From a virus: a DNA stretch of 44,178 bases. The position numbers were made by a program, and so were the translations under genes. Where the stretch lies: positions 1 through 44,178 of IMG/VR virus record IMGVR_UViG_3300013005_000067. One strand, given 5' to 3'. Below the pieces are notes generated by a model that was given only the letters and a program-made list of their open reading frames with translations, was not told where the DNA came from and did not search any database. Below are positions 1,146 to 40,868 of the stretch, in pieces. Positions within the stretch are counted from its first letter, which is position 1. Every line of letters starts with the position of its first letter.

Positions 1146-3014
1146 TTAGGCTGTTTGATCTGGGTTGTTTAGAGCACGATTTCCGGCACTAAACCCGAAT
1201 CGATTTACCAGTTTAGCACGGCCTGCAGGGGTGGCCAACACCCAGCCTTCTTGTCCGGGCTGTTGACGATCTAGCTGTGCCAACATGTCTGTTTTGATAT
1301 CATGCAACAACAAGAATGCAGTGAATGCCGCAGTGATACCTGCCATGTTTGTGCGTGGGCTTTGCAGGTATTCCACAATGTTATTGAACTTGCGTGGTGT
1401 TACATTGGTTTTTAGCCAGTCTCCAAATCCGTGCAACAAGTTGTCGTAGTTGCTGGTGATTCTAGAATTGATGTAGCGTTTGCACAACTGTGGCAAATCA
1501 GTAATGCCGGCAGCACGTAGATCAGCAGGATTAAACAAACTGTCAATGGCAGCACCTTGTGTAGACACAATCTGACTCAACTGTTTAACTAGGCCACTGT
1601 TTAACTCAACGTTGCGAATGTCTTTGACACTGGGCTCAATCAGCAACAGTCCAGGAACTTCATTCAGTGTGACCTGCTTGATTGCTTCAGGAGCGGCATC
1701 AACATCACGATAACGTGTGTGTACAGCAACACCTACTTCGCTGTTGCCAATGCGCTGTCCTAGCTTACTGCTGGCTGGAATCTTGTATTCAACAAAGTTT
1801 GGACGGAACACATAAGCGCCGGCCTGTTCAGGAGGTGTGTTGGTATACAGTAAATCGCCCTGTACAAATCCACGCATGCTGTCAGGCACGGCAGCACGTA
1901 GCAAGGGAAACAACTTTTGATAAAGCCCAATCAACTCTGTACGATCTCCAGAACGCATGGCCATCATTCTAGCAATATGCTCCGGCGATGTTGCCAAGCC
2001 GTCATAGCCTTTGGCACCAAATCCGCTTTTGTCTGTGAGCACAAACGTGCCATCTGGCTTGCGGCCAAATATGATAGCAGGCTTGCCATCCCATTTGACT
2101 GTGGTTGTGCCACGTGTGTCTTCTGCGGCGTGGCGCATGATTTCAACTGCATCGCGAATGCCACGTGTGCCTTTTTCAAACACTAGATCTTCTAGGTGTT
2201 CGATACGTGCATCCTTAGCACCTTCCACAATCACTGCCATACCTTGATTCACAATGCGATCACGCAGTCTGCCCAAGAAGTTTACTTCGTTGTATTCTTT
2301 GTATACGGGCTCTTCGCTTTCCATAAATGGTACACCAATTTTGGCAAAGTGTTCACGTGCATCTGCCAGCTTGGCATCACGCTTGGGATCACCTTCCAGT
2401 GCGGCCACAATGGTTTCTACACTGTGTAGATCTTTGCTGGTTGCTTGTTTATTCAACAACAGTCGGGCAATTTTATCTGGATCATCCGTGATAACCTTGT
2501 TGGTAGCGCGGTCAGCAATGCCTGCATTTTGATTCAACTTGTAACCCATGCTCTTGGCAATGCTGTTCATCAGCACGTTACGTGCCGATCCACTGTAGTT
2601 GCTGTCAGGTGCCGCACTTAGCACAAACTTTGAAAATGGCACATTGGTCAAGAACATAAAGTCAGACTGCACATAACCTGAATTGGGATTGCCTTTGATA
2701 GGTGTTTTAAAGTGTACACTGATGCCAGACTTTTTGATGTAGTCTTCCGGTTTGAAACCATGGCTTTGACACCATTGTGTTAGTCGTGCAACCAATTGTT
2801 CTTTGCTGACTTGATTGGCATCCACTGCCAGATCCAAATCGCCTGACGTGGGTTTTCTACCTGTGGAGCCCAGTGTGTTGTTTTGCAAATCCAGTCCCGG
2901 TAACATTAGATCAAGCCAGGCCAAGGTGGGAGCAACGTCTGCTTGGTTAATGCGCTGTGTTAGTATGCGGCCACTTGCGTCTTTAAAAACATTGCCGCCT
3001 TCTTTTAATATCAT
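1146..3014 (-). CDS. Nucleotidyltransferase-like / ligase-like (DUF6267-type) fusion protein, 622 aa
   Basis: Two enzyme-like parts are visible. Residues about 48-65 read LGSTGRKPTSGDLDLAVD, the pattern of the Pol-beta-type nucleotidyltransferase fold (G-S, then D59 and D61), with a plausible third acid at D118 in YVQSDFMFL. Residues 300-415 contain TTVKWDGKPAIIFGR, a KxDG motif I as in covalent nucleotidyltransferases (DNA/RNA ligases; K307 would carry AMP), then FVQGDLLY (383-390) and VEYKIP (408-413), which resemble motifs IV and V. A similar KWDG domain occurs in T4-like cyanophages as DUF6267. It overlaps the next upstream gene by ATGA. Its neighbours look like head proteins, so it may be packaged and injected, as T4 Alt is. 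Substrate is unknown; activity is inferred from motifs only. Confidence 0.7.
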   Translation of the reverse strand: MILKEGGNVFKDASGRILTQRINQADVAPTLAWLDLMLPGLDLQNNTLGSTGRKPTSGDLDLAVDANQVSKEQLVARLTQWCQSHGFKPEDYIKKSGISVHFKTPIKGNPNSGYVQSDFMFLTNVPFSKFVLSAAPDSNYSGSARNVLMNSIAKSMGYKLNQNAGIADRATNKVITDDPDKIARLLLNKQATSKDLHSVETIVAALEGDPKRDAKLADAREHFAKIGVPFMESEEPVYKEYNEVNFLGRLRDRIVNQGMAVIVEGAKDARIEHLEDLVFEKGTRGIRDAVEIMRHAAEDTRGTTTVKWDGKPAIIFGRKPDGTFVLTDKSGFGAKGYDGLATSPEHIARMMAMRSGDRTELIGLYQKLFPLLRAAVPDSMRGFVQGDLLYTNTPPEQAGAYVFRPNFVEYKIPASSKLGQRIGNSEVGVAVHTRYRDVDAAPEAIKQVTLNEVPGLLLIEPSVKDIRNVELNSGLVKQLSQIVSTQGAAIDSLFNPADLRAAGITDLPQLCKRYINSRITSNYDNLLHGFGDWLKTNVTPRKFNNIVEYLQSPRTNMAGITAAFTAFLLLHDIKTDMLAQLDRQQPGQEGWVLATPAGRAKLVNRFGFSAGNRALNNPDQTA

Positions 3015-4459
3015 GGTATTGTGTACCCCATACCTTCTAGCATGGTGTCAATTACTGAATCACCTGTGGTAGATAGTTGTTTGTTGCCAGTTGCAGTCTG
3101 AATTGCTTGTCCTGCACTACCCAATACCTGGGCAGTTAGCCCGGACTTGTTTAGCAATGCCACTGCATTGGATCCCATCAATTGACCCGTGGCCGGTGCA
3201 GTACCAGCGGCGGTGCCAGCGGCTCCAGGTTGCCCTGTTTTTCCAGTTTGTCCGGCCGGTGCTGGTTGCTGTCCATATGCAGGCGCTTCCGGTGATGCGG
3301 CTTTCACAGTATTTTGTGATGCCACCAGTTGCAGTGCGGCCATGGCAGTTAAAATATAACTTTTAACTGCTTCTTTAGTTTTTGCAGGATCGCCCTGGGC
3401 ACCGATAACTTCTTGTTTGGCTGCGTCCAACTCTGCCTTTAAATCAGAGTTTTCGGCGGCTGTTAATCCCAGCATTTTGTATGTGGCCGAATCGCGCATG
3501 GCAATTTTTTCATTTGCCCACTTTAAAAAGTCTGTGGCATACGCAGATGAGGGCGCTGCCGCTGCTTTATACCCTATAGGATTTGTTGGAGTTGGGTTGG
3601 TTCCTGCTCCAGGTACCTGGAATGGTTTCAATGGCATTGCTGTGCCTGTTGATTTTGCAGGTGCCGTTGTAGTTGTTGCAGTTTGACCGGGTTTTGTTAC
3701 GGCTGGGTTAGGATTGGTTCCTGCTCCAGGTACCTGGTACGGCGCAGTTGGCATTGCTGTGCCTGTTGATTTTGCAGGTGCTGCCGGCTGTTGTGCAGCC
3801 ACGCCACCTCTTACCATGTCGTTTATACCTTGCCCAGCATTGGCCACAGCAGATGTTGCTGGATCATATTTTGCAAACTTGGTTGCATCACCGCCTGTGC
3901 CACTGCCTGCACGACCTTGAACGTACCGGGTTTGATCTTTGATGTTGGGATTGTTAGGGTCGGCCTTGTTTACCTGACTGCCTGTGACAGGAGGCGTTTG
4001 TGCGGCCGCAGTGGTATTGGCCACACCGGGCATTTTTGCCACGTTGTTGTAATTAAATCTTTGTGCGTTAACAGTTGCAGGCGCTTTGGGCTGTTGTGCG
4101 GCCAGTGACATGTACGGATTAGGCCGACCGGTTTGTTTTTCTAATTCCTGTTGCGTAGATACCGCTGTGTCTTCTGGAACTGGTTGTGCTTGTTTTTTTA
4201 CCCATTCATCAGCATACGTTGTTGCCAGTTTGACCATTTGTGAATTTGCCTTCACAGCGGCTAATTTTTTTACAGGATCAAGGATACCTGAACTTGATGC
4301 CCTGAAGTTTTGTGTTGTTCCTGTCCCAGGAGATACAGATTGTGCAACCGCAGTTTTGGTTGCGTCGTAAGCACCTTTAGCCACATTACCAACGCCTTTT
4401 ACCACGTCCATAATGCCTTCGTCAGTGCGACGTGAACGATTTAACTCATGAATTTGCAT
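3011..4459 (-). CDS. Low-complexity Ala/Pro/Thr/Gln-rich probable head protein, 482 aa
   Basis: The protein starts MQIHELNRSRRTDEGIMDVV, then runs through long Pro/Ala/Thr/Gln stretches with two copies of a 39-residue repeat (core STGTAMP...VPGAGTNP). A helical segment near the middle follows (FLKWANEKIAMRDSATYKML), and it ends in VIDTMLEGMGYTIP. The short N-terminus with I-H-E at residues 3-5 fits the [IL]-x-E cleavage rule of the T4 prohead protease, so an internal or scaffold-type head protein is possible. No catalytic motif was seen. It overlaps the 82-aa gene upstream by 14 nt and the fusion gene downstream by 4 nt, so the three form one late unit behind 4717-4724. Confidence 0.65.
   Translation of the reverse strand: MQIHELNRSRRTDEGIMDVVKGVGNVAKGAYDATKTAVAQSVSPGTGTTQNFRASSSGILDPVKKLAAVKANSQMVKLATTYADEWVKKQAQPVPEDTAVSTQQELEKQTGRPNPYMSLAAQQPKAPATVNAQRFNYNNVAKMPGVANTTAAAQTPPVTGSQVNKADPNNPNIKDQTRYVQGRAGSGTGGDATKFAKYDPATSAVANAGQGINDMVRGGVAAQQPAAPAKSTGTAMPTAPYQVPGAGTNPNPAVTKPGQTATTTTAPAKSTGTAMPLKPFQVPGAGTNPTPTNPIGYKAAAAPSSAYATDFLKWANEKIAMRDSATYKMLGLTAAENSDLKAELDAAKQEVIGAQGDPAKTKEAVKSYILTAMAALQLVASQNTVKAASPEAPAYGQQPAPAGQTGKTGQPGAAGTAAGTAPATGQLMGSNAVALLNKSGLTAQVLGSAGQAIQTATGNKQLSTTGDSVIDTMLEGMGYTIP
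3597..3781 (-). repeat. Two-copy direct repeat inside a coding region
   Basis: Two nearly identical stretches of about 68 bp (3597-3664 and 3714-3781) are offset by exactly 117 bp, which is 39 codons, so the frame is kept. They encode the duplicated STGTAMP-x-xPxQVPGAGTNP segment of the low-complexity head protein. Confidence 0.8.
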
Positions 4460-4694
4460 CAGTTTTTCTCACGGTTCTTGTAAATTTGCCGGGGTCGCGC
4501 AGGTTGATGGCATTGATCAACTTGCGTTGCAAATTTTTAGCTGCCTCGGGCTCATAACTGGAGTCAATCTGCTCTAGTAGGCGTATAGCACTGGCAATGA
4601 TGTTACCAGCACGATTTTCGATAACATAGCGGGAGTCACGCTCCACATACATGCTGTCTAATTCTTCTAATAAACTACGAGTTTTCTTCTGCAT
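4446..4694 (-). CDS. Small helical conserved phage protein, 82 aa
   Basis: This 82-residue, almost wholly helical protein begins MQKKTRSLLEELDSMYVERD and contains ENRAGNIIASAIRLLEQI. It is charged and has no membrane segment. It is the first gene after the late promoter AATAAATA at 4717-4724 and precedes the low-complexity head protein with a 14-nt overlap. Similar short helical proteins accompany structural genes in T4-like cyanophages, but I cannot name a function. A weak GGG ribosome site lies upstream. Confidence 0.65.
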   Translation of the reverse strand: MQKKTRSLLEELDSMYVERDSRYVIENRAGNIIASAIRLLEQIDSSYEPEAAKNLQRKLINAINLRDPGKFTRTVRKTDANS

Positions 4695-5513: not shown

Positions 5514-6256
5514 AGATCATTGTCTAGATTCAGCAGGTCTATACCATACTGATGTTGTATCATTCCACACATAATTCCAAAATCTATATTGTCAAAATAT
5601 TCTGGTATAGTTGTGGTTGTTTTGTTTACCACAGCGTCGCATATTTTTTGATACTGGGCCACACGATCAATTATTGGACGTTGTGCGGTAATAAAATGTT
5701 TCCAAATCGACTCTGAATTTTTACCATCAATTCCGGGCATGGTGGCCATCAACTTGATAAAAGAATCAAGTTGATAAAAATCAGGAAAATTAACATTTAA
5801 TCCCGACATGTCAGATGGCAAATGTTCAATAGTTCTAAGAATAGCATGTTGATAGATATAAAAAAATTCTTCTCGCAGACTATTATTACTTGTGGGAAAT
5901 TTTTCCTTTGCACTAGTAATAAATTTTTGTTCTGTAGTTTTATCGGACTGTATGGCCTTGCGATAAAAATTGTTTAGATAAATTTCCCAATGCCCATTAA
6001 CTAAGATATTTACAACCAGGCGATCTTGAAATTTTTTTGTTAAATCCCGGTTATCAAAATTATGTAAGCATATTACTGGACTGTCAGTATCGTCGGCTCC
6101 GGTATACAGATCTATGTTGTTGGTTTGCGAAGAATAATTTTTTGTTAATCCATGATAACTGCCAGTGGTGTGAACAGAAAAATCATATTCGTCGGCCAGT
6201 ATTCTTGCCAAGAAATGTCCCAATGCTCCGGGCGGCGCAGTTATAATGTATTTCAT
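5504..6256 (-). CDS. PPG-motif protein (possible sulfotransferase-like fold), 250 aa
   Basis: The best start is the ATG at 6256, giving MKYIITAPPGALGHFLARIL. It overlaps the upstream stop as TAATG; a longer frame to 6292 would overlap the radical SAM gene. The N-terminal strand-loop-helix APPGALGHFLARIL resembles the sulfate-binding loop of sulfotransferase-like P-loop proteins and is shared with the 278-aa gene at 15608-16444 (FPPGCYGTYVARCI), so the two look like distant paralogues. The remainder is helical and rich in Asn, Asp and Tyr. It lies between an SGNH-like gene and a radical SAM gene. The function is a guess; no catalytic residues can be assigned. Confidence 0.5.
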   Translation of the reverse strand: MKYIITAPPGALGHFLARILADEYDFSVHTTGSYHGLTKNYSSQTNNIDLYTGADDTDSPVICLHNFDNRDLTKKFQDRLVVNILVNGHWEIYLNNFYRKAIQSDKTTEQKFITSAKEKFPTSNNSLREEFFYIYQHAILRTIEHLPSDMSGLNVNFPDFYQLDSFIKLMATMPGIDGKNSESIWKHFITAQRPIIDRVAQYQKICDAVVNKTTTTIPEYFDNIDFGIMCGMIQHQYGIDLLNLDNDLWI

Positions 6257-7344
6257 TATTCTACCTCTAAATCTGGAAATGCTGTTTTCCAACTATTATT
6301 ACGGCGGCTATCCCAGGTATTAATAAAATCTTTCCATGGCTCTGATTCTGACAGAGTTGGTGCCAACGGCAGGTTGGCCACTAGTTTATATATTGCATGA
6401 TCGGTTGAATATTTTTTCAGCACTGCTGATCTAATATACATTGGCATGTTGTTTAAATCCCAAGGCCCCCAACACGGATGAATGTTAATTTCTGTTGGGT
6501 CTCCAAATGCATTGGTGTTTAAGTTGCTTTTTACCCAAGTCTCAAGTCGATCATAATAGTAGGTGTTAAGAACATTGGCTGTGAATTCCACTCTGAACAT
6601 TAAATTCCATATGTCTTTATTTTCTTTAAGACGTATCAAATTTTTACTGACCTTGCTCCAAGGCAGTGGCCATCGAACATAATCAAATTGTTCTTCTATT
6701 CCATCTAAACTCGCAGCAAAAATTATTGTTTTAAATTTTTTCCATTCCAGTAATGTTTGCTCTGAAGGATATATAGATCCATTGGTGGTGTAGTGTAGTG
6801 TTACGTTTTCTGGATGAGGAATATGTTTTATAAAAGCCAAATGAGTATCTGTAAACAGTGGTTCGCCGCCGAAAAACTTAACGTATTTTAGTTTTTTTAA
6901 AGACACAGTGTCAACCAGTTGATTGATTGAGTTGATAATGAAATCATTGTCCCTGTTGATTGTTATTTTTTTGTTGCGTAACTTTGCCTGTTCTTTTTCC
7001 CATAAAGAGCTACTATGAGAATTGCAAATTATACAGGCTGCATTGCATTCATTGTCAAAATTAATGTCTACGGCCACTGGATCTGTAGATGTTTCGTCGT
7101 CTGGCACCCAGTCGGAACCGGTTTGTCGTAAACTTTGCTGACCGAAATCTTCCAGTGTTTTGCACTTTGCACAATTACTAGTCCAGTGATCAATTGACTC
7201 AAAGTTAAGTTTACGATTTTGTGACAGTTGAGAATTCAAAGGTATTGCTGTGGCAAACAAGCAACAAGGTCTTACACTGATACCCGAGTTTTTATCTAAT
7301 TTAAATGAATACCCATTGGACAGATATCTACAAAAGCTATTCAT
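6256..7344 (-). CDS. Radical SAM enzyme with N-terminal Cys-rich (twitch-type) region, 362 aa
   Basis: The [4Fe-4S]-SAM motif is CNAACIIC (C100, C104, C107), followed by a GGE-type SAM contact (KFFGGEPLF). The N-terminus has its own cysteines (C5, C27-C28, then C58 and C61 in NCAKC). This layout, also seen in the 378-aa gene at 39732-40868, is that of twitch-domain radical SAM proteins found in marine T4-like phages. These usually act on peptides or cofactors, but the substrate here is unknown. Its ATG overlaps the helicase stop as ATGA and its stop overlaps the next start as TAATG, so it is translated together with replication genes. Confidence 0.8.
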   Translation of the reverse strand: MNSFCRYLSNGYSFKLDKNSGISVRPCCLFATAIPLNSQLSQNRKLNFESIDHWTSNCAKCKTLEDFGQQSLRQTGSDWVPDDETSTDPVAVDINFDNECNAACIICNSHSSSLWEKEQAKLRNKKITINRDNDFIINSINQLVDTVSLKKLKYVKFFGGEPLFTDTHLAFIKHIPHPENVTLHYTTNGSIYPSEQTLLEWKKFKTIIFAASLDGIEEQFDYVRWPLPWSKVSKNLIRLKENKDIWNLMFRVEFTANVLNTYYYDRLETWVKSNLNTNAFGDPTEINIHPCWGPWDLNNMPMYIRSAVLKKYSTDHAIYKLVANLPLAPTLSESEPWKDFINTWDSRRNNSWKTAFPDLEVE

Positions 7345-8786
7345 GAATGTTTAATTTGCCCAAGCAACTGCTTTAGTTTGACACTTTGTACATCGCCAGT
7401 CACTTTGGCTGGCTGTTCCCACGCCGGAGTTCCTGTTGGTTTTTCCCACTTTGTAGATGTACTGCCCGTTGGTTCGGTGTCAGCAGCCTTGAGTTGACTT
7501 TTTGCTTTGATTGAGTCCATAAGTGAACTTTGGGGTCGGTTGTACCCGGTTCCTTCGTCCCCGCCTTCATCAGTAATGCGCATAGTTTCAATGTTATACT
7601 CCAAATCAATTTTTTGACCAACGCCGGTCGAGCTTCGAGATTTCATACACTGGATCTGATACTTGCCACGCTCTTTCATAGCACGTGAAGTAAAGATACC
7701 AAACACATTGTCTGCTGTGTTAATTTTACTGATACCACCTGAAATATGACTGTGGTCAAATTCAATTTCTTCCACAGCCGATCGATTCAACTGCGAAGCT
7801 GTGACCATTAGCACACCTAGCTCTTTGGCCAAGTTGCGTAGTTCTTCTGAAACATACTTGTCTTTGACAAACAAGTCATTGGGGCTGACCTTAGCACTCA
7901 CAGGCATCAGCAAGTCCAAGTAGTCAATCATCATAAAGTCCACACGAATTCCGGTTTGGATCTGTACTTCTTTGATGTAACTGCGGATGTCATTAATGTT
8001 GCTTTGTGCTGGTAATGCCTTTACACGATACTGCCCAGACTTTTTGGCCACAAGTTTTACCTTAAGTTCTGTTGTGTCTATATCCTTACGAATGTCCTTT
8101 GTTGACATGTTGGTCAACATGGCATCTGTACGCAAACTAGTAAGTTCTTCACTGAGTTCTAGTGTAACGTACACACCACTAAGTCCTTGTTGTAGCCAGT
8201 TCAACGCAATGTTCATCATGACCAGACTCTTGCCCGAACCAGATCCACCGGCAAAGATGTTCAGTTCACCACGACTGAATCCACCATACAACAACTTGTC
8301 TAGTTGTGGCCAACCAGTGCTCACTTGGCCGCCTGAGTTGAAGTACCGGTTAATACGACTCGCAGGATCAGCAAAGTAATCTGTGCCCATGTCTTTTGTA
8401 AGAGAAATTTGAACTGCATCTTTGATCAGTTTCTCAACCGGCTCAAACTCGCCTTTTTCTAATAGATCTGCTGACTTTAAAATAGCACGTTCAAGTTCTT
8501 GACGCTTGGTAAAACTCTCAAACTCAGTCATGAACCAGTCAAAGTGTCCTTCATTTAAGTCCGGCACCGGTTGTAGTTTTATTCCGGTAGTTGCACTAAT
8601 CTGCATCTTGTCCGGCATAGTTTTATGCTTGTCCGTGTGCTCTTTAATGAACTCAGCCGCTGGACGCAGACTTTTGTCAAAGTTCTGTGGATTATAAATG
8701 TTCTGAACACGCACATAACTGCTGGCGTCTTCCAACATCATTTCTAAAAATAATCGTTGGACTTCAAGTCCGTAATCTTTTAACAA
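7341..8786 (-). CDS. 41: Replicative DNA helicase, T4 gp41 / DnaB type, 481 aa
   Basis: A DnaB-type helicase that would unwind the fork as a hexamer with the adjacent primase. An all-helical N-terminal domain (about 1-130) precedes a RecA-like core with Walker A GGSGSGKS (180-187), Walker B-like FMMIDYLDLL, a VTASQLNRSAVEE motif and KSRSSTGVGQ near the end of the core. The C-terminal tail (Pro/Thr/Lys-rich, ending KLKQLLGQIKHS) may bind partners. The start is a TTG at 8786, 8 nt after AAGGAAG, and overlaps the primase gene by 23 nt; the next ATG would cut the N-terminal domain. Length is close to T4 gp41. Confidence 0.92.
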   Translation of the reverse strand: MLKDYGLEVQRLFLEMMLEDASSYVRVQNIYNPQNFDKSLRPAAEFIKEHTDKHKTMPDKMQISATTGIKLQPVPDLNEGHFDWFMTEFESFTKRQELERAILKSADLLEKGEFEPVEKLIKDAVQISLTKDMGTDYFADPASRINRYFNSGGQVSTGWPQLDKLLYGGFSRGELNIFAGGSGSGKSLVMMNIALNWLQQGLSGVYVTLELSEELTSLRTDAMLTNMSTKDIRKDIDTTELKVKLVAKKSGQYRVKALPAQSNINDIRSYIKEVQIQTGIRVDFMMIDYLDLLMPVSAKVSPNDLFVKDKYVSEELRNLAKELGVLMVTASQLNRSAVEEIEFDHSHISGGISKINTADNVFGIFTSRAMKERGKYQIQCMKSRSSTGVGQKIDLEYNIETMRITDEGGDEGTGYNRPQSSLMDSIKAKSQLKAADTEPTGSTSTKWEKPTGTPAWEQPAKVTGDVQSVKLKQLLGQIKHS

Positions 8787-9732
8787 GTTGCTTCTTCCTT
8801 AGTTCTATTTTAATTCGACTGCTCTCACTCGATTGCATTATAGTTAGCAGTGTTGTTAACTTGCCCCAGAGTTTCACAGCATCGTTGATATCTTTAACGC
8901 CTGCTGGCCAGTCTGGAATACTCACACTCCATCCTAGTTCCACAGCACGGTCAATTAATTCTACGCCTGCAGTATCTTGGTCCGGCACCACAACAACATT
9001 GCGTCCTAGACTGCGTATTAGTCTTGCTTGATCATCACTTACTTCGTTGTGCATCACAGCCATGCCACTGATACAGAGTGCATCAAAGATACCTTCTGTC
9101 ACAATCACATGTTGCCATCCTGCTTGTTGTAGATCTACACCAAACACATAGCCTTTCTGCATGTCATTAATGTAACGTGGATTACGATCGTCTAAGAAAC
9201 GTACGGTGCTGCCTACCACTTGATTGTTGTATGTAAATGGAACAACTACTCCTGCTCGTGTTGTGGCAGCTACCATTATGGGATAGTCGTTGGGTACATG
9301 CCGGCTGCGCAGATATGCCCATTGATCAGGCGTCGCTGGTGTTACAAAATCTACAAATTCTGGCAACTCTGTTTCCGTAAATTCAATAGGCGCTGTGTTG
9401 TTCCACACACGCTGACGATCTTCTATCATGCCTTCCATACTGCGATGGCGCATACTTTCAAGATTGATCTGATTGATATCGTTTTCAGGAACGCCTATCC
9501 ATTCTAGCAAACGTCGTGCTTTGAATCCGATATTGCGTCCAAGAATAAAACTTGCAGTATAGCCACAGTTAAAACAATGATAACTCCAGCCCTGTTCAGA
9601 CAGTTTGATACCACCACGTCCACGACGATCAGGTGTGTTGCCAGTGTGTACGCAACAAGGTGCGTTGAAGGAAATCCACCCAGAACTAGACTGTTTTCTT
9701 TTGCCTGGTAAAAATGCCAACACGTCAATCAT
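8764..9732 (-). CDS. 61: DNA primase, T4 gp61 type, 322 aa
   Basis: It makes RNA primers for lagging-strand synthesis with the gp41 helicase encoded just downstream. An N-terminal zinc-binding region has C26, C27 and H29, then C53 and C56 (YHCFNCGY). A TOPRIM domain follows, with VTEGIFDAL (about 211-219; the Glu is catalytic) and VVPDQDTAG (the DxD metal site, about 250-253). The length of 322 aa is near the family norm. The ATG at 9732 has no Shine-Dalgarno; instead a sigma-70-like promoter ends 6 nt before it, so the mRNA is predicted to be leaderless. Confidence 0.9.
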   Translation of the reverse strand: MIDVLAFLPGKRKQSSSGWISFNAPCCVHTGNTPDRRGRGGIKLSEQGWSYHCFNCGYTASFILGRNIGFKARRLLEWIGVPENDINQINLESMRHRSMEGMIEDRQRVWNNTAPIEFTETELPEFVDFVTPATPDQWAYLRSRHVPNDYPIMVAATTRAGVVVPFTYNNQVVGSTVRFLDDRNPRYINDMQKGYVFGVDLQQAGWQHVIVTEGIFDALCISGMAVMHNEVSDDQARLIRSLGRNVVVVPDQDTAGVELIDRAVELGWSVSIPDWPAGVKDINDAVKLWGKLTTLLTIMQSSESSRIKIELRKKQLVKRLRT

Positions 9733-10956: not shown

Positions 10957-11334
10957 ATGGCCAATGATATCTTTACTAAACTCAGCGAACAATACCCCTT
11001 TATTACACTGTGTGTATATGCTTCCACGGAGTATGTGGGTATTGTGCAGAATCAAGACGTGTCAGTTACCACCATATACGACTTTGGCAGCATACACGAC
11101 CCTGCACTAAAGCAACGGTTCCTGGAGTTGGCCAATGCTTGGTGGTGGGAAAGTAATAGAAGTATTCCCATCAACATCTTCCTCAAGAAAGACTGGGATG
11201 TATTCCGTCCTTGTCTCCGCACATTTGCCAACAAAGACTTGGAAATACTTCACGGGCCTATTTGTAGCCTTGCTGATATTGCACTGAAAAAAGGCAAACG
11301 CAAAAGTATCACACTTGTGCGACGGATGGACTGA
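10957..11334 (+). CDS. Conserved T4-like phage protein, 125 aa
   Basis: A compact 125-aa alpha/beta protein starting MANDIFTKLSEQYPFITLCV, with an Ala-Trp-Trp-Trp-Glu-Ser segment (NAWWWESNRSIPINIFLK) and a basic end (KKGKRKSITLVRRMD). I recall relatives as uncharacterised proteins in T4-like cyanophages but cannot give a function. It is the only plus-strand gene of the left arm. It is driven by a perfect late promoter and its last 26 bp overlap, tail to tail, the end of the polymerase-like gene on the other strand. Confidence 0.75.
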   Translation: MANDIFTKLSEQYPFITLCVYASTEYVGIVQNQDVSVTTIYDFGSIHDPALKQRFLELANAWWWESNRSIPINIFLKKDWDVFRPCLRTFANKDLEILHGPICSLADIALKKGKRKSITLVRRMD

Positions 11335-11887
11335 GCAGGTTCATGTGTAATGCTACCAAGGCTGCGTAAGAGATTGCGTGGCTTTTCTTAAATGTGTAGC
11401 CGCGACTTTCATCACCGTCCCACACAGAGTCGAATACCACGTCCCAAGGCTGTCGTTGCAAATGTGCTTTGCCCGGACGAATGATACTGATAAACGCTGC
11501 CATTCTTGGAATACTATCCGGGCGCATTGCGCTCAGCAGGTCTGTATAGTTGCCAACGTGTGCTAGTTGTTTTGCCCATTCTGGTTCTTGCCACAGTCGA
11601 CTCCAAGTAGGCTCTGTGGCCACTGCTGTGGCATAGTGTTCTGGACTGGTAATCAACTGATAAACACTCATGTTTAACAGGTCAATTTTAAAATAACCCA
11701 GTTGTTCGGCAGCTTCGTAGTCGATGGCCGCACAACGATTCACAGGATCCTGCGGAATGTCTGTTACATACACACCAGAGTTATGACGACGAACTTGTTC
11801 TTGCACAGTTTGACGTGCAGGCGTATGCTGGATTAACTCCAGCAGTTGATTGCGATCTGCAAAATCAATGTCGATATCTGCACTCAT
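11309..11887 (-). CDS. Miniature C-family (PolIII alpha / DnaE-like) polymerase-related protein, 192 aa
   Basis: The best start is the ATG at 11887 (TAATG overlap with the upstream stop); the longer frame would need a TTG. Short blocks match bacterial DnaE in the same order. ADIDIDFADRNQLLELI matches the palm motif that carries two catalytic Asp (D6 and D8 here). RRHNSGVYVTDIP matches the KHAGGVVIAP block. DYEAAEQLGYFKIDLLNM matches the block with the third catalytic Asp (D69). MRPDSIPRMAAFISIIRPG matches the KPD...ALYRPG block, and YTFKKSHAISYAAL matches the YGFNKSHAAAYA finger motif. The PHP, thumb, beta-binding and OB parts are absent, and DnaE is over 1000 aa. It may be an inactive remnant, a regulator or a tiny nucleotidyltransferase. 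Comparison is from memory of DnaE motifs. Confidence 0.6.
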   Translation of the reverse strand: MSADIDIDFADRNQLLELIQHTPARQTVQEQVRRHNSGVYVTDIPQDPVNRCAAIDYEAAEQLGYFKIDLLNMSVYQLITSPEHYATAVATEPTWSRLWQEPEWAKQLAHVGNYTDLLSAMRPDSIPRMAAFISIIRPGKAHLQRQPWDVVFDSVWDGDESRGYTFKKSHAISYAALVALHMNLLSPSVAQV

Positions 11888-12561
11888 TACCAACCTGCCT
11901 GCGTTAATATTTCTTTGGCGTACTCTTGATCTGCCGTGTAGTCACTGAACTTTTTTTGCCATACATCCGAGTCAATGTATGGCCATACCATGGCAATTTG
12001 ACCAGTATCTAATGTGCTTAAAAACCGTTGCCCAGATTCACTGTTGTAAATTACCCAAGGACTGATACGTCCTGTTGTCACTGCATACACAGTGGCATTG
12101 GTACCACCATAGCGTAAACAATCCTGAGCAGGATTGCCTGTTTTCTCTGCCCAGTCAATTCCGTATTCCATTGCACGAGCCAAGGCATCGTTGATGTTTT
12201 CTACTTGCAAATAATATATCAAGTATTCTGTGTACACAGCATCACGGCACCAGTGATCAATCTTTTTGTTTTGTTTCAGTACCCATTCCATAAAACGTGC
12301 AGGGTTAATGGCACGTGTGGCCACACAGTAGCGACCAAACTTGACAAATGCTCGGTAGTAAGGTGAGTCAGCAAAGTCATCAAATGTCTTTAGTTTAGCA
12401 CTGCCTTGTGTCATTTCGTAGAACTTAATGTACGCTTGAAAGCCCAGTTCCACACCACGCTCTGCTCGTTCCATGCGTCGACGTCGCGGCTCACAACTAT
12501 GCACAGTCAGGCTTGTTTCTTTGACAAAGTCTTTCCGACAATACTGACAGGTGTAACTCAT
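11887..12561 (-). CDS. Zinc-finger conserved phage protein, 224 aa
   Basis: The first 25 residues form a C2HC zinc finger (C5, C8, H21, C23 in YTCQYCRKDFVKETSLTVHSC), followed by an Arg-rich stretch (EPRRRRMERAERG) suited to nucleic acid binding. The remaining 180 residues are helical and aromatic (RAFVKFGRYC, WVLKQNKKIDHWCRD, EYLIYYLQVENIND). It overlaps the genes on both sides by a few bases (ATGA, TAATG), which places it in one operon with the polymerase-like protein and the putative clamp-loader subunit. Proteins of this design occur in T4-like cyanophages without known function. Confidence 0.7.
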   Translation of the reverse strand: MSYTCQYCRKDFVKETSLTVHSCEPRRRRMERAERGVELGFQAYIKFYEMTQGSAKLKTFDDFADSPYYRAFVKFGRYCVATRAINPARFMEWVLKQNKKIDHWCRDAVYTEYLIYYLQVENINDALARAMEYGIDWAEKTGNPAQDCLRYGGTNATVYAVTTGRISPWVIYNSESGQRFLSTLDTGQIAMVWPYIDSDVWQKKFSDYTADQEYAKEILTQAGW

Positions 12562-39003: not shown

Positions 39004-39739
39004 GTATATCCTTTATACTTCTCAAGTGATCAATTATTTTCGCATGTACTCGATGATGACTAGGAGGGCCTGGGTGAGTTAAATCTCTTGATAACCCCAA
39101 CACAGGATTTCTAAAATCTTCAACGTCAATCACCAGTACAGGAATACCATGCTGGTGGCACACTTGTTGTATGGCCAGTTCATTGCGTTGTTTGTCAGCA
39201 ATGCTGTTAGCGTCAGTAAACCACCAATCGCGAAAAACTTCCTGCACTGTAGCTACTTGAGGAAAGGCCGGAGACATCACAGTACTGACATTGTGTTGAT
39301 TTATTATTTCAAATCGTTCTCTAAAAGTTGTTTGTAAAATTACAAATCTTGGTTTGATTATAGGCAACCAATAGTGAGCCAGTCTGAATGCTAGTCCATT
39401 GGATACGCCAAACACACCAAAATTATCAACTGGAAGTGAGAGATCTTTTGAAATTCTTTCATGGTATAGCTCATCCACTGGAAGTCCGAGTCCTTGAGTA
39501 AAACTACACCCAAACACAGCAAATCCTGGCTGTGCTAGATCAATTTCTCTGGACCTGAATCCTTGAGCATTGTATCGATATTCTATCTTGTGGTCAATCC
39601 AGCCGTTCTGAGCCAACAACTCTCGCTGCCGAGTATTTTTTAAATTTTTATTGTATTCTTGTTCACTGTCAATACTGCACCACAGCAGTGTTTTGCCGGC
39701 ATGCTGTTGCTGTACATGACAAGGTGCATGCTCAAACAT
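38996..39739 (-). CDS. SGNH-hydrolase-like protein, 247 aa
   Basis: FAVFGCSFTQGLGLPVDELY is block I with Ser in a GCSF form; FGVFGVSNGLAFRLAHYWL is block II; a DLTHPGPPSHHRVHAKII block near the end gives the DxxH (D and H of the triad). It would act on an ester on a sugar or lipid. It is followed by the terminase and preceded by a radical SAM gene with 8-nt overlaps on both sides. It is the best-conserved of the three SGNH-like proteins in the window. Confidence 0.75.
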   Translation of the reverse strand: MFEHAPCHVQQQHAGKTLLWCSIDSEQEYNKNLKNTRQRELLAQNGWIDHKIEYRYNAQGFRSREIDLAQPGFAVFGCSFTQGLGLPVDELYHERISKDLSLPVDNFGVFGVSNGLAFRLAHYWLPIIKPRFVILQTTFRERFEIINQHNVSTVMSPAFPQVATVQEVFRDWWFTDANSIADKQRNELAIQQVCHQHGIPVLVIDVEDFRNPVLGLSRDLTHPGPPSHHRVHAKIIDHLRSIKDIHG

Positions 39740-40868
39740 TGGTCAACTCCGGCCATAATTTCACAAATTCTCCTAGTTTGTCAGGATGGTATTGTGTTTC
39801 AATTTCTGCAATGTGTTGTCTAAATTTTTGCAAAATAGCAGGTTGGTCTTGTGTCACACTGTGATAGGTGTTTAATGCATTGTCAAAAAAAGATCTCTCA
39901 ACAGGTGTTGCTAATCCTGTGGCGTAAAACTGTTCAATCTCTGCGGCGGCTAATTTGGCAACACCTGGGCCGTGCAAGAACGGATCAAGGTAGTCAGGTT
40001 GGAACAAGTTCTGCCACAGCACAGTTACTCCTGCTTCTTCGGCAAATTCTCGCAGTTCACAGATGCGTGTGGCATTGTAGATGTTGTATACCGCATGGAT
40101 GCCGCCCCAGTGTCCAGAGTTAGCAATTAGTTTTTTGACTGCGGACAAGTTGTGTTTTAGCAACGCCCATTCACCACCATGACGCACATATTCAAATCGA
40201 TCGCCAATGTTATCAAAACTCATGCTCCACCCAACTCGGTTCCGTTGACTTAGTTTCTTAAAGATTTTGTTTTTATCTAAGTCTACACTCATGTTGGTGA
40301 TCAGTGTCACAATAGCATCCTGTGGAATAACATCAAGCAGTCGTTCATTTTCCGGCAACAGCAACGGCTCGCCACCAACCAAGGCCACTTCGTGTATGTG
40401 TTCTTGATGTTGTTCAATGAAGTCGCATACTTGTTCATAGTAAGGACGCGATCCCGATTTAAAAGGAATGCCTTTAAGGCTGGCCCACTTAGAACTGCAA
40501 TATTCCATGCAGTAGTTACAACTTAGATTGCAGGTGGTGTTCCAGCGTATGTCTATAATAACAGGATAGTGATATTGTGAGCCTGCGGTGGCATAATCAA
40601 AGTTGGGATTTACGCTGTTGTGCCAATCACGTTCAGACCGGCCACCAAGGCGTTCTGCTTGCACACAGTTGGAACAGTATTTGTGTGGCTTACCTTGTGC
40701 AATAGTACTGCGTATTTCCTGTAGCAGATCTCCGTTGAGGATTTCAATGATGTTGTTGGTGTTTAGGTTACCCAGCATGTTGGGATCACCTGCACAACAG
40801 GTTTTAACATCGCCACGTGGGTTTATATGTAGGCCACGCCAGGGTGCGGCACAGTAGAAATTCGTCAT
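39732..40868 (-). CDS. Twitch-type radical SAM enzyme, 378 aa
   Basis: CNLSCNYC (C113, C117, C120) binds the [4Fe-4S]-SAM cluster; VALVGGEPLLLPENERLLDVI is the GGE motif; AIVTLITNMSVDL and WSMSFDNIG supply barrel strands. The N-terminus has C6, C24-C25 (DVKTCC), C65 and C68 (YCSNC), the same layout as the 362-aa protein at 6256-7344. It may modify a peptide or a glycan-linked group; substrate unknown. It overlaps the SGNH gene by 8 nt. Its ATG directly follows a palindrome with a late-type box (40869-40882). Confidence 0.85.
   Translation of the reverse strand: MTNFYCAAPWRGLHINPRGDVKTCCAGDPNMLGNLNTNNIIEILNGDLLQEIRSTIAQGKPHKYCSNCVQAERLGGRSERDWHNSVNPNFDYATAGSQYHYPVIIDIRWNTTCNLSCNYCMEYCSSKWASLKGIPFKSGSRPYYEQVCDFIEQHQEHIHEVALVGGEPLLLPENERLLDVIPQDAIVTLITNMSVDLDKNKIFKKLSQRNRVGWSMSFDNIGDRFEYVRHGGEWALLKHNLSAVKKLIANSGHWGGIHAVYNIYNATRICELREFAEEAGVTVLWQNLFQPDYLDPFLHGPGVAKLAAAEIEQFYATGLATPVERSFFDNALNTYHSVTQDQPAILQKFRQHIAEIETQYHPDKLGEFVKLWPELTNV

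Follow-up and report, generated by a model that had tools for sequence, protein, structure and literature searches.

A Pol X-like nucleotidyltransferase fused to a DUF6267 ligase-like domain in large T4-like phages: a candidate two-step nucleic-acid repair enzyme

Why would a phage join two nucleotidyltransferase-like domains in a single polypeptide, and on which substrate would they act? This question is raised by a gene at positions 1146-3014 of the window, by which we mean the whole stretch of DNA analyzed, a single virus record of 44,178 bases. The window also encodes a T4-like terminase, UvsX, a gp41-like helicase and a primase, and its source is a large T4-like freshwater phage. Related contigs of up to 347 kb (L068) and 344 kb (L117) carry genes for a prohead protease of the gp21 type and a capsid protein of the gp23 type. 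A first-pass annotation had described the gene as a fusion of a Pol-beta-type nucleotidyltransferase with a ligase-like domain, and we recovered exactly this open reading frame: it encodes 622 amino acids on the minus strand (start at 3014, end at 1146), with a Pol X-like nucleotidyltransferase (NT) domain followed by a DUF6267 ligase-like domain. More than 120 intact full-length homologues were found in viral contigs, with identities down to ~52%. The dN/dS values of both halves were 0.04-0.13 where calculable, indicating strong purifying selection on both. AlphaFold2 modeled the full-length protein with a mean pLDDT of 87.4, as two confidently predicted domains connected by a low-confidence linker at residues ~231-268. 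A single, non-exhaustive search of contigs from bacterial and archaeal genomes with two short peptide patterns did not reveal any cellular relative.

The N-terminal part (residues 5-230; 2325-3002, minus strand, as for all features of this gene) has the appearance of a Pol X-like nucleotidyltransferase with palm and thumb. The catalytic NT motif GSTGRKPTSGDLD (residues 49-61; 2832-2870) contains D59 and D61, and D118 (2661-2663) would be the third catalytic aspartate. All three residues, as well as S57 and R145, were present in 57/57 NT-bearing sequences, stand-alone homologues included, and position 50 is either Ser or Thr in this set. The hG(S/T)...DxD...D pattern of family X is therefore satisfied, and D59, D61 and D118 form, as read from the sequence, a Pol-beta-type catalytic triad. 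R145 belongs to a thumb-like motif, YxGxxRN..M...A...G(Y/F)x(L/I)N (residues 140-165; 2520-2597). The Pfam profile DNA_pol_B_thumb matched residues 146-184 below its cut-off of 25 (11.9 bits, E 0.22), in agreement with a segment that reads like a Pol X thumb. In a PDB fold search with the AlphaFold2 model, 50/50 among the matches listed were family-X polymerases (lambda, beta, mu and Thermus PolX), with a probability of 1.00, a best E value of 9e-4 and ~165-205 aligned columns, at a TMt of only 0.23-0.46. The 8-kDa lyase domain is absent from the model: a single helix precedes the palm, which leaves no room for it. Judged by its model, the N-domain is specifically DNA polymerase family X-like.

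For the C-terminal part (residues 269-622; 1149-2210), DUF6267 (PF19782) was the sole Pfam match over cut-off, covering residues 271-612 (E 1.4e-36; 127.2 bits vs. a curated cut-off of 27), and no known Pfam ligase domain was detected. DUF6267 is a family without assigned function, and we found no mention of it in the literature searched. Within the domain, K307-W-D-G310 (2085-2096) corresponds to ligase motif I; both this motif and GS...D59xD61...D118 lie at the residues that had been proposed for them. G386-D387-L-L-Y390 (1845-1859) resembles motif III, and a helical insertion separates it from the motif IV-like E589-G-W-V592 (1239-1250) and the motif V-like K601 (KxV; 1212-1214). The conserved residues thus fall in the ligase motif order I, III, IV, V. 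K307, D309, G310, E589, G590, V592 and K601 were found in 67/67 rows of the C-domain alignment. A second alignment of 55 sequences from four phage groups, 23-71% identical to the window protein, showed the same residues and additionally G386 and D387 to be invariant. Substitutions of K307, D59 or D61 were looked for in homologues, and none was found (67/67 and 57/57, respectively). Such conservation of D59/D61/D118 and K307/D309/G310 indicates that the motifs are not due to chance.

DNA ligases usually carry Arg at position +5 of motif I, Glu in motif III and KxK as motif V; the C-domain departs from this consensus by Pro, Asp and KxV, respectively. Modeled separately with AlphaFold2, it reached a pLDDT of 91.3 and a pTM of 0.86. 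Its PDB fold ranking was led by DNA ligases III, IV and I, the ASFV ligase, tRNA ligases and an archaeal RNA ligase, all of them non-significant matches (best E 0.04). Besides the obvious DUF6267 proteins, a search of predicted viral structures (BFVD) matched a 446-aa protein of phage PA5oct (E 9e-6) and an RNA ligase of phage Atu_ph07 (E 7.8e-5). The C-terminal OB domain of DNA ligases is absent, since only ~20 residues remain after motif V in the model. An alignment of the DUF6267 profile with T4 RNA ligase 2 was non-significant, and PDB sequence searches with P0001, A1 and P0015 gave nothing usable, the best matches being at chance level. With tblastn, relatives of the C-domain were found in 321 phage records using the window protein as query and in 468 using the protein of Stenotrophomonas phage DLP6. 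Marine phages that carry this ligase-like domain number in the hundreds. Based on motifs I, III, IV and V and on the non-significant, ligase-led fold ranking, we place DUF6267 as a predicted member of the ligase (covalent nucleotidyltransferase) superfamily. Both original domain calls hold in a sharpened form; the fold prediction proposed at that time bore out the N-domain by its Pol X matches, and for the C-domain it gave the ligase-led ranking with a best E of 0.04. As a side observation, the BFVD entry H8ZNG8 of metaG-MbCM1, named "NrdB ribonucleotide reductase", matched the DUF6267 fold with an E value of 3.5e-14, and its name is probably wrong.

Among the annotated phage records searched, homologues of the NT domain occur only in Sinorhizobium phage Phosso, Agrobacterium phage Atu_ph07 and PA5oct-like phages. 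The NT gene comes immediately after a gene for a KLDG ligase-like protein in both Phosso and Atu_ph07, and in Pseudomonas phage PA5oct a KIDG ligase-like gene is located three genes upstream of the NT homologue. We take the 446-aa PA5oct protein matched in BFVD to be EST35_0228, because the two are of equal length. EST35_0228 contains the motifs KIDG and EGYV...KIV, resembles the ligase-like protein of Phosso (pairwise E 3e-12) and aligns with DUF6267 at motifs IV/V (pairwise P 5.5e-4). All three pairs are located downstream of primase/helicase genes. The same position is taken by the fusion in the window family and by DUF6267 downstream of gp41 in cyanophages. Together, the fusion and the split pairs argue for a joint function of the NT and ligase-like parts. 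Just upstream of DUF6267/NT genes, three further genes (L150:3647-4666, L148:7034-7951 and L147:5169-5948) look by eye like PD-(D/E)xK-type nucleases, with no supporting Pfam match.

Does the fusion simply serve as the ligase of these phages? Each of four large related records has a gene for a canonical ATP-dependent DNA ligase at another location, and on these grounds we rejected the fusion as the replicative DNA ligase. No NAD-dependent ligase was found, and the RNA_ligase matches in the related records turned out to be the same gene as the DNA ligase. A separate canonical enzyme in the relatives indicates a dedicated, non-replicative role of the fusion. The main rival to DNA gap filling plus sealing is that this role lies in RNA repair: the C-domain would be an RNA ligase and the NT domain a terminal nucleotidyltransferase, and the two would jointly restore and rejoin RNA molecules, for instance tRNA cleaved by an anticodon nuclease of the host. 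The presence of a DNA ligase in related phages is in line with this idea, as is the C-domain with its motif I devoid of the DNA-ligase Arg and its missing OB domain, two features also typical of T4 RNA ligases. Moreover, the ligase-like partners of Atu_ph07 and Phosso weakly resemble the RNA_ligase family PF09414 (E 0.002 and 0.085, respectively), and the Atu_ph07 gene is named RNA ligase. But all 50 NT fold matches listed are family-X DNA polymerases and none is a CCA-adding enzyme; the window does not contain any tRNA genes, and no end-healing kinase or phosphatase was found among the scanned neighbors of the fusion gene. We consider RNA repair unlikely, albeit worth serious attention. The repair of cut tRNA, suggested initially, is not specifically supported and is one option among several, the Pol X fold pointing more to gap filling. 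DNA is favored as the substrate because of this fold, and some probability stays with RNA because motif I and the missing OB fold lean towards RNA ligases.

The first-pass annotation had taken the neighbors of the fusion gene for head proteins, but the conserved ones are the primase, the gp41-like helicase and uncharacterized genes. In the window, the DnaB-type gp41-like helicase (7341-8786) and the DNA primase (8764-9732) are upstream syntenic landmarks, both on the minus strand like the following three genes. An 82-aa gene (4446-4694) is the best-conserved small neighbor (59-100% identity), and a downstream gene of 136 aa (666-1076) without family match is kept beside the fusion. Directly upstream, a 482-aa low-complexity protein (3011-4459) with the conserved N-terminus MQIHE(L/I)...EG is a candidate packaged protein. 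The remainder of its sequence is fast-evolving, Ala/Pro-rich and of low complexity, resembling a packaged internal protein. Elsewhere, the window carries two radical-SAM genes (6256-7344 and 39732-40868, both minus strand), one with a SPASM domain, and a 194-aa protein (11309-11893, minus strand) whose match to the phage DNA polymerase family phrog_11778 (197 positions) hints that the polymerase gene is split or incomplete.

Short N-terminal propeptides of 7-65 aa direct T4 internal proteins to the prohead, where the protease gp21 cleaves after (L/I)xE (PMC9026906). In the fused family, (L/I/V)xE is found immediately before a conserved GG in 73/73 distinct N-termini, against a background of 9% for hxE near a Met. 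P3 is L in 52, I in 18 and V in 3 of these sequences, P2 is free (11 residue types), and the leader comprises 4-9 aa, which is mostly shorter than T4 propeptides and below the 10-19 aa of a T4-type capsid-targeting sequence. In the window protein, residues 1-5, MILKE (3000-3014), represent the putative prohead-protease propeptide (hxE before GG), as suggested by the family N-termini in a region of low model confidence. Residues 1-4 have a pLDDT below 50, so that a fold constraint is an unlikely cause of the pattern. DLP6-type DUF6267 proteins show a T4-like MKxFxxF(I/L)xE in 57/59 distinct N-termini vs. 1/1869 internal methionines, using a pattern that was written after sight of these sequences; T4 IPII and IPIII both start with MKTYQEFIAE. 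Individual non-cyanophage DUF6267 proteins (L377, L330 and other DLP6-type loci) start almost exactly like T4 capsid-targeting sequences, e.g. with MKTFKKFIAE followed by D. A count over all genes of the 347-kb relative showed no enrichment of hxE starts (16 observed vs. 16.4 expected), and the case for packaging therefore relies on conservation within the family and on homologues. The same relative encodes a 202-aa candidate packaged protein (L411, G001:C1:244274-244879) with the start MKHFKEYLAE followed by N, a T4-like capsid-targeting sequence.

A gp21-type protease is encoded in two related records, and the NT homologue of PA5oct is annotated as a structural protein detected by ESI-MS/MS. 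The cytidylyltransferase that neighbors DUF6267 was found in virions of the cyanophages S-SM1 (PMC3037559) and S-SZBM1 (PMC9146016), and these virion proteins start with MKKFSAFLNE and MRFRQFIIE, respectively, each followed by A. The DUF6267 protein of S-SZBM1 itself, SSZBM1_141, is not among the listed virion proteins (PMC9146016). The cyanophage-type DUF6267 proteins read here, all other than SSZBM1_141, start with MAKNTH or MSKNTH, without capsid-targeting leader. We also considered S-SM1 T4-GC190 as DUF6267 itself and rejected it, as it is the neighboring cytidylyltransferase. S-SM1 SSM1_191 (L419:19422-20843) is annotated as a cytidyltransferase, but by eye it is Ala/Lys/Ser-rich like the virion-detected SSZBM1_139, a likely misannotation. 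Delivery with the DNA, which had been proposed from the supposed head-protein neighbors, thus loses this argument but gains indirect ones: the hxE starts before GG, the T4-like DLP6-type sequences and the virion-annotated PA5oct NT homologue make delivery of the fusion protein with phage DNA plausible.

A delivered protein could also act on something other than nucleic acid. Once injected, it might serve as an effector that attaches nucleotides to host proteins or small molecules, with a delivery analogous to that of T4 Alt. NT folds are also used in protein and small-molecule modification, the N-termini resemble capsid-targeting sequences, and in cyanophages DUF6267 adjoins a cytidylyltransferase-like domain found in virions, to which it is apparently fused in S-PM2. 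The Pol X thumb-like segment and the ligase-like pairing downstream of primase/helicase point to nucleic acid instead, and an effector function seems distinctly improbable to us. We give still far less credit to a structural protein of the prohead core in which the enzyme folds have lost their catalytic activity. The synteny with the low-complexity candidate packaged protein and the hxE start before GG would suit such a protein, but dead enzymes usually lose their catalytic residues, and here these are invariant over a wide identity range, with low dN/dS.

Taken together, two domains, invariant catalytic residues, a recurrent NT/ligase-like pairing and selection on both halves emerge from the computation. 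The reading that combines them is a two-step nucleic-acid repair enzyme, possibly packaged, which fills and seals phage DNA; its chances of being right as a whole appear evenly balanced. The best support exists for a mechanism, analogous to that of PgVPolX (see below), in which the NT domain would fill gaps or add to ends and DUF6267 would subsequently seal. We infer both enzyme activities as follows: the minimal Pol X-type domain would add nucleotides to a 3' end or fill a short gap, with D59, D61 and D118 serving metal-dependent catalysis, and the DUF6267 domain would take AMP on K307 and then seal the resulting nick. The likeliest substrate would be the phage's own DNA, with nicks or gaps that stem from packaging, from entry or from an attack by the host. 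The protein may enter the prohead via its short N-terminal signal, where a gp21-type protease would trim it after Glu5, and the trimmed protein may act on injected DNA. That a capsid-packaged, injected polymerase-ligase repairs the incoming genome at entry, before any phage gene expression, is a more speculative extension which we think will probably not hold. If true, DUF6267, which occurs in several hundred records of cyanophages and other phages, would represent a new ligase class, and in many of these phages it would enter together with the DNA.

Among known fusions, PgVPolX of Phaeocystis globosa virus comes closest. This protein consists of a Pol X core and a C-terminal KxDG ligase, and it fills gaps and seals nicks experimentally (PMC5537341). 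Unlike the window protein, PgVPolX contains an 8-kDa lyase domain and an NAD-dependent ligase part clearly homologous to LigA, and its gene resides in a giant algal virus. ASFV Pol X is also minimal and lacks the 8-kDa domain (PMC5537341). The ASFV ligase ranks near the top of the C-domain fold matches, but it is a canonical enzyme. ASFV Pol X and the ASFV DNA ligase are encoded by two separate genes. Bacterial LigD, an end-joining enzyme, combines a polymerase and an ATP-dependent ligase in a single chain, but this polymerase belongs to the primase type and not to Pol X. In T4-like cyanophages, DUF6267 (phrog_455) shows the same motifs as the C-domain and the same place downstream of gp41, but the members examined are stand-alone proteins without NT domain, apart from that of S-PM2 with its apparent cytidylyltransferase fusion. 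The NT homologues of Atu_ph07, Phosso and PA5oct have a KxDG ligase-like gene beside them or nearby and, like the fusion, are located downstream of primase/helicase, but these pairs are unfused and their ligase-like partners only distantly similar to DUF6267. T4 IPII, IPIII and Alt have an hxE start as at gp21-processed sites, which is matched almost exactly by DLP6-type DUF6267; in the window protein the signal comprises only 5 aa, and packaging is predicted. We found no description of a Pol X-ligase-like fusion in phages in the literature searched. New in this work are this fusion and the predicted assignment of DUF6267 to the ligase superfamily. DUF6267, with relatives in 468 phage records, thereby gains a testable enzyme activity, and through the capsid-targeting sequences that DUF6267 proteins carry, DNA or RNA repair by virion-delivered proteins becomes directly testable in culturable phages. 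The joining of Pol X-type and ligase-like domains in phages parallels that in PgVPolX and LigD.
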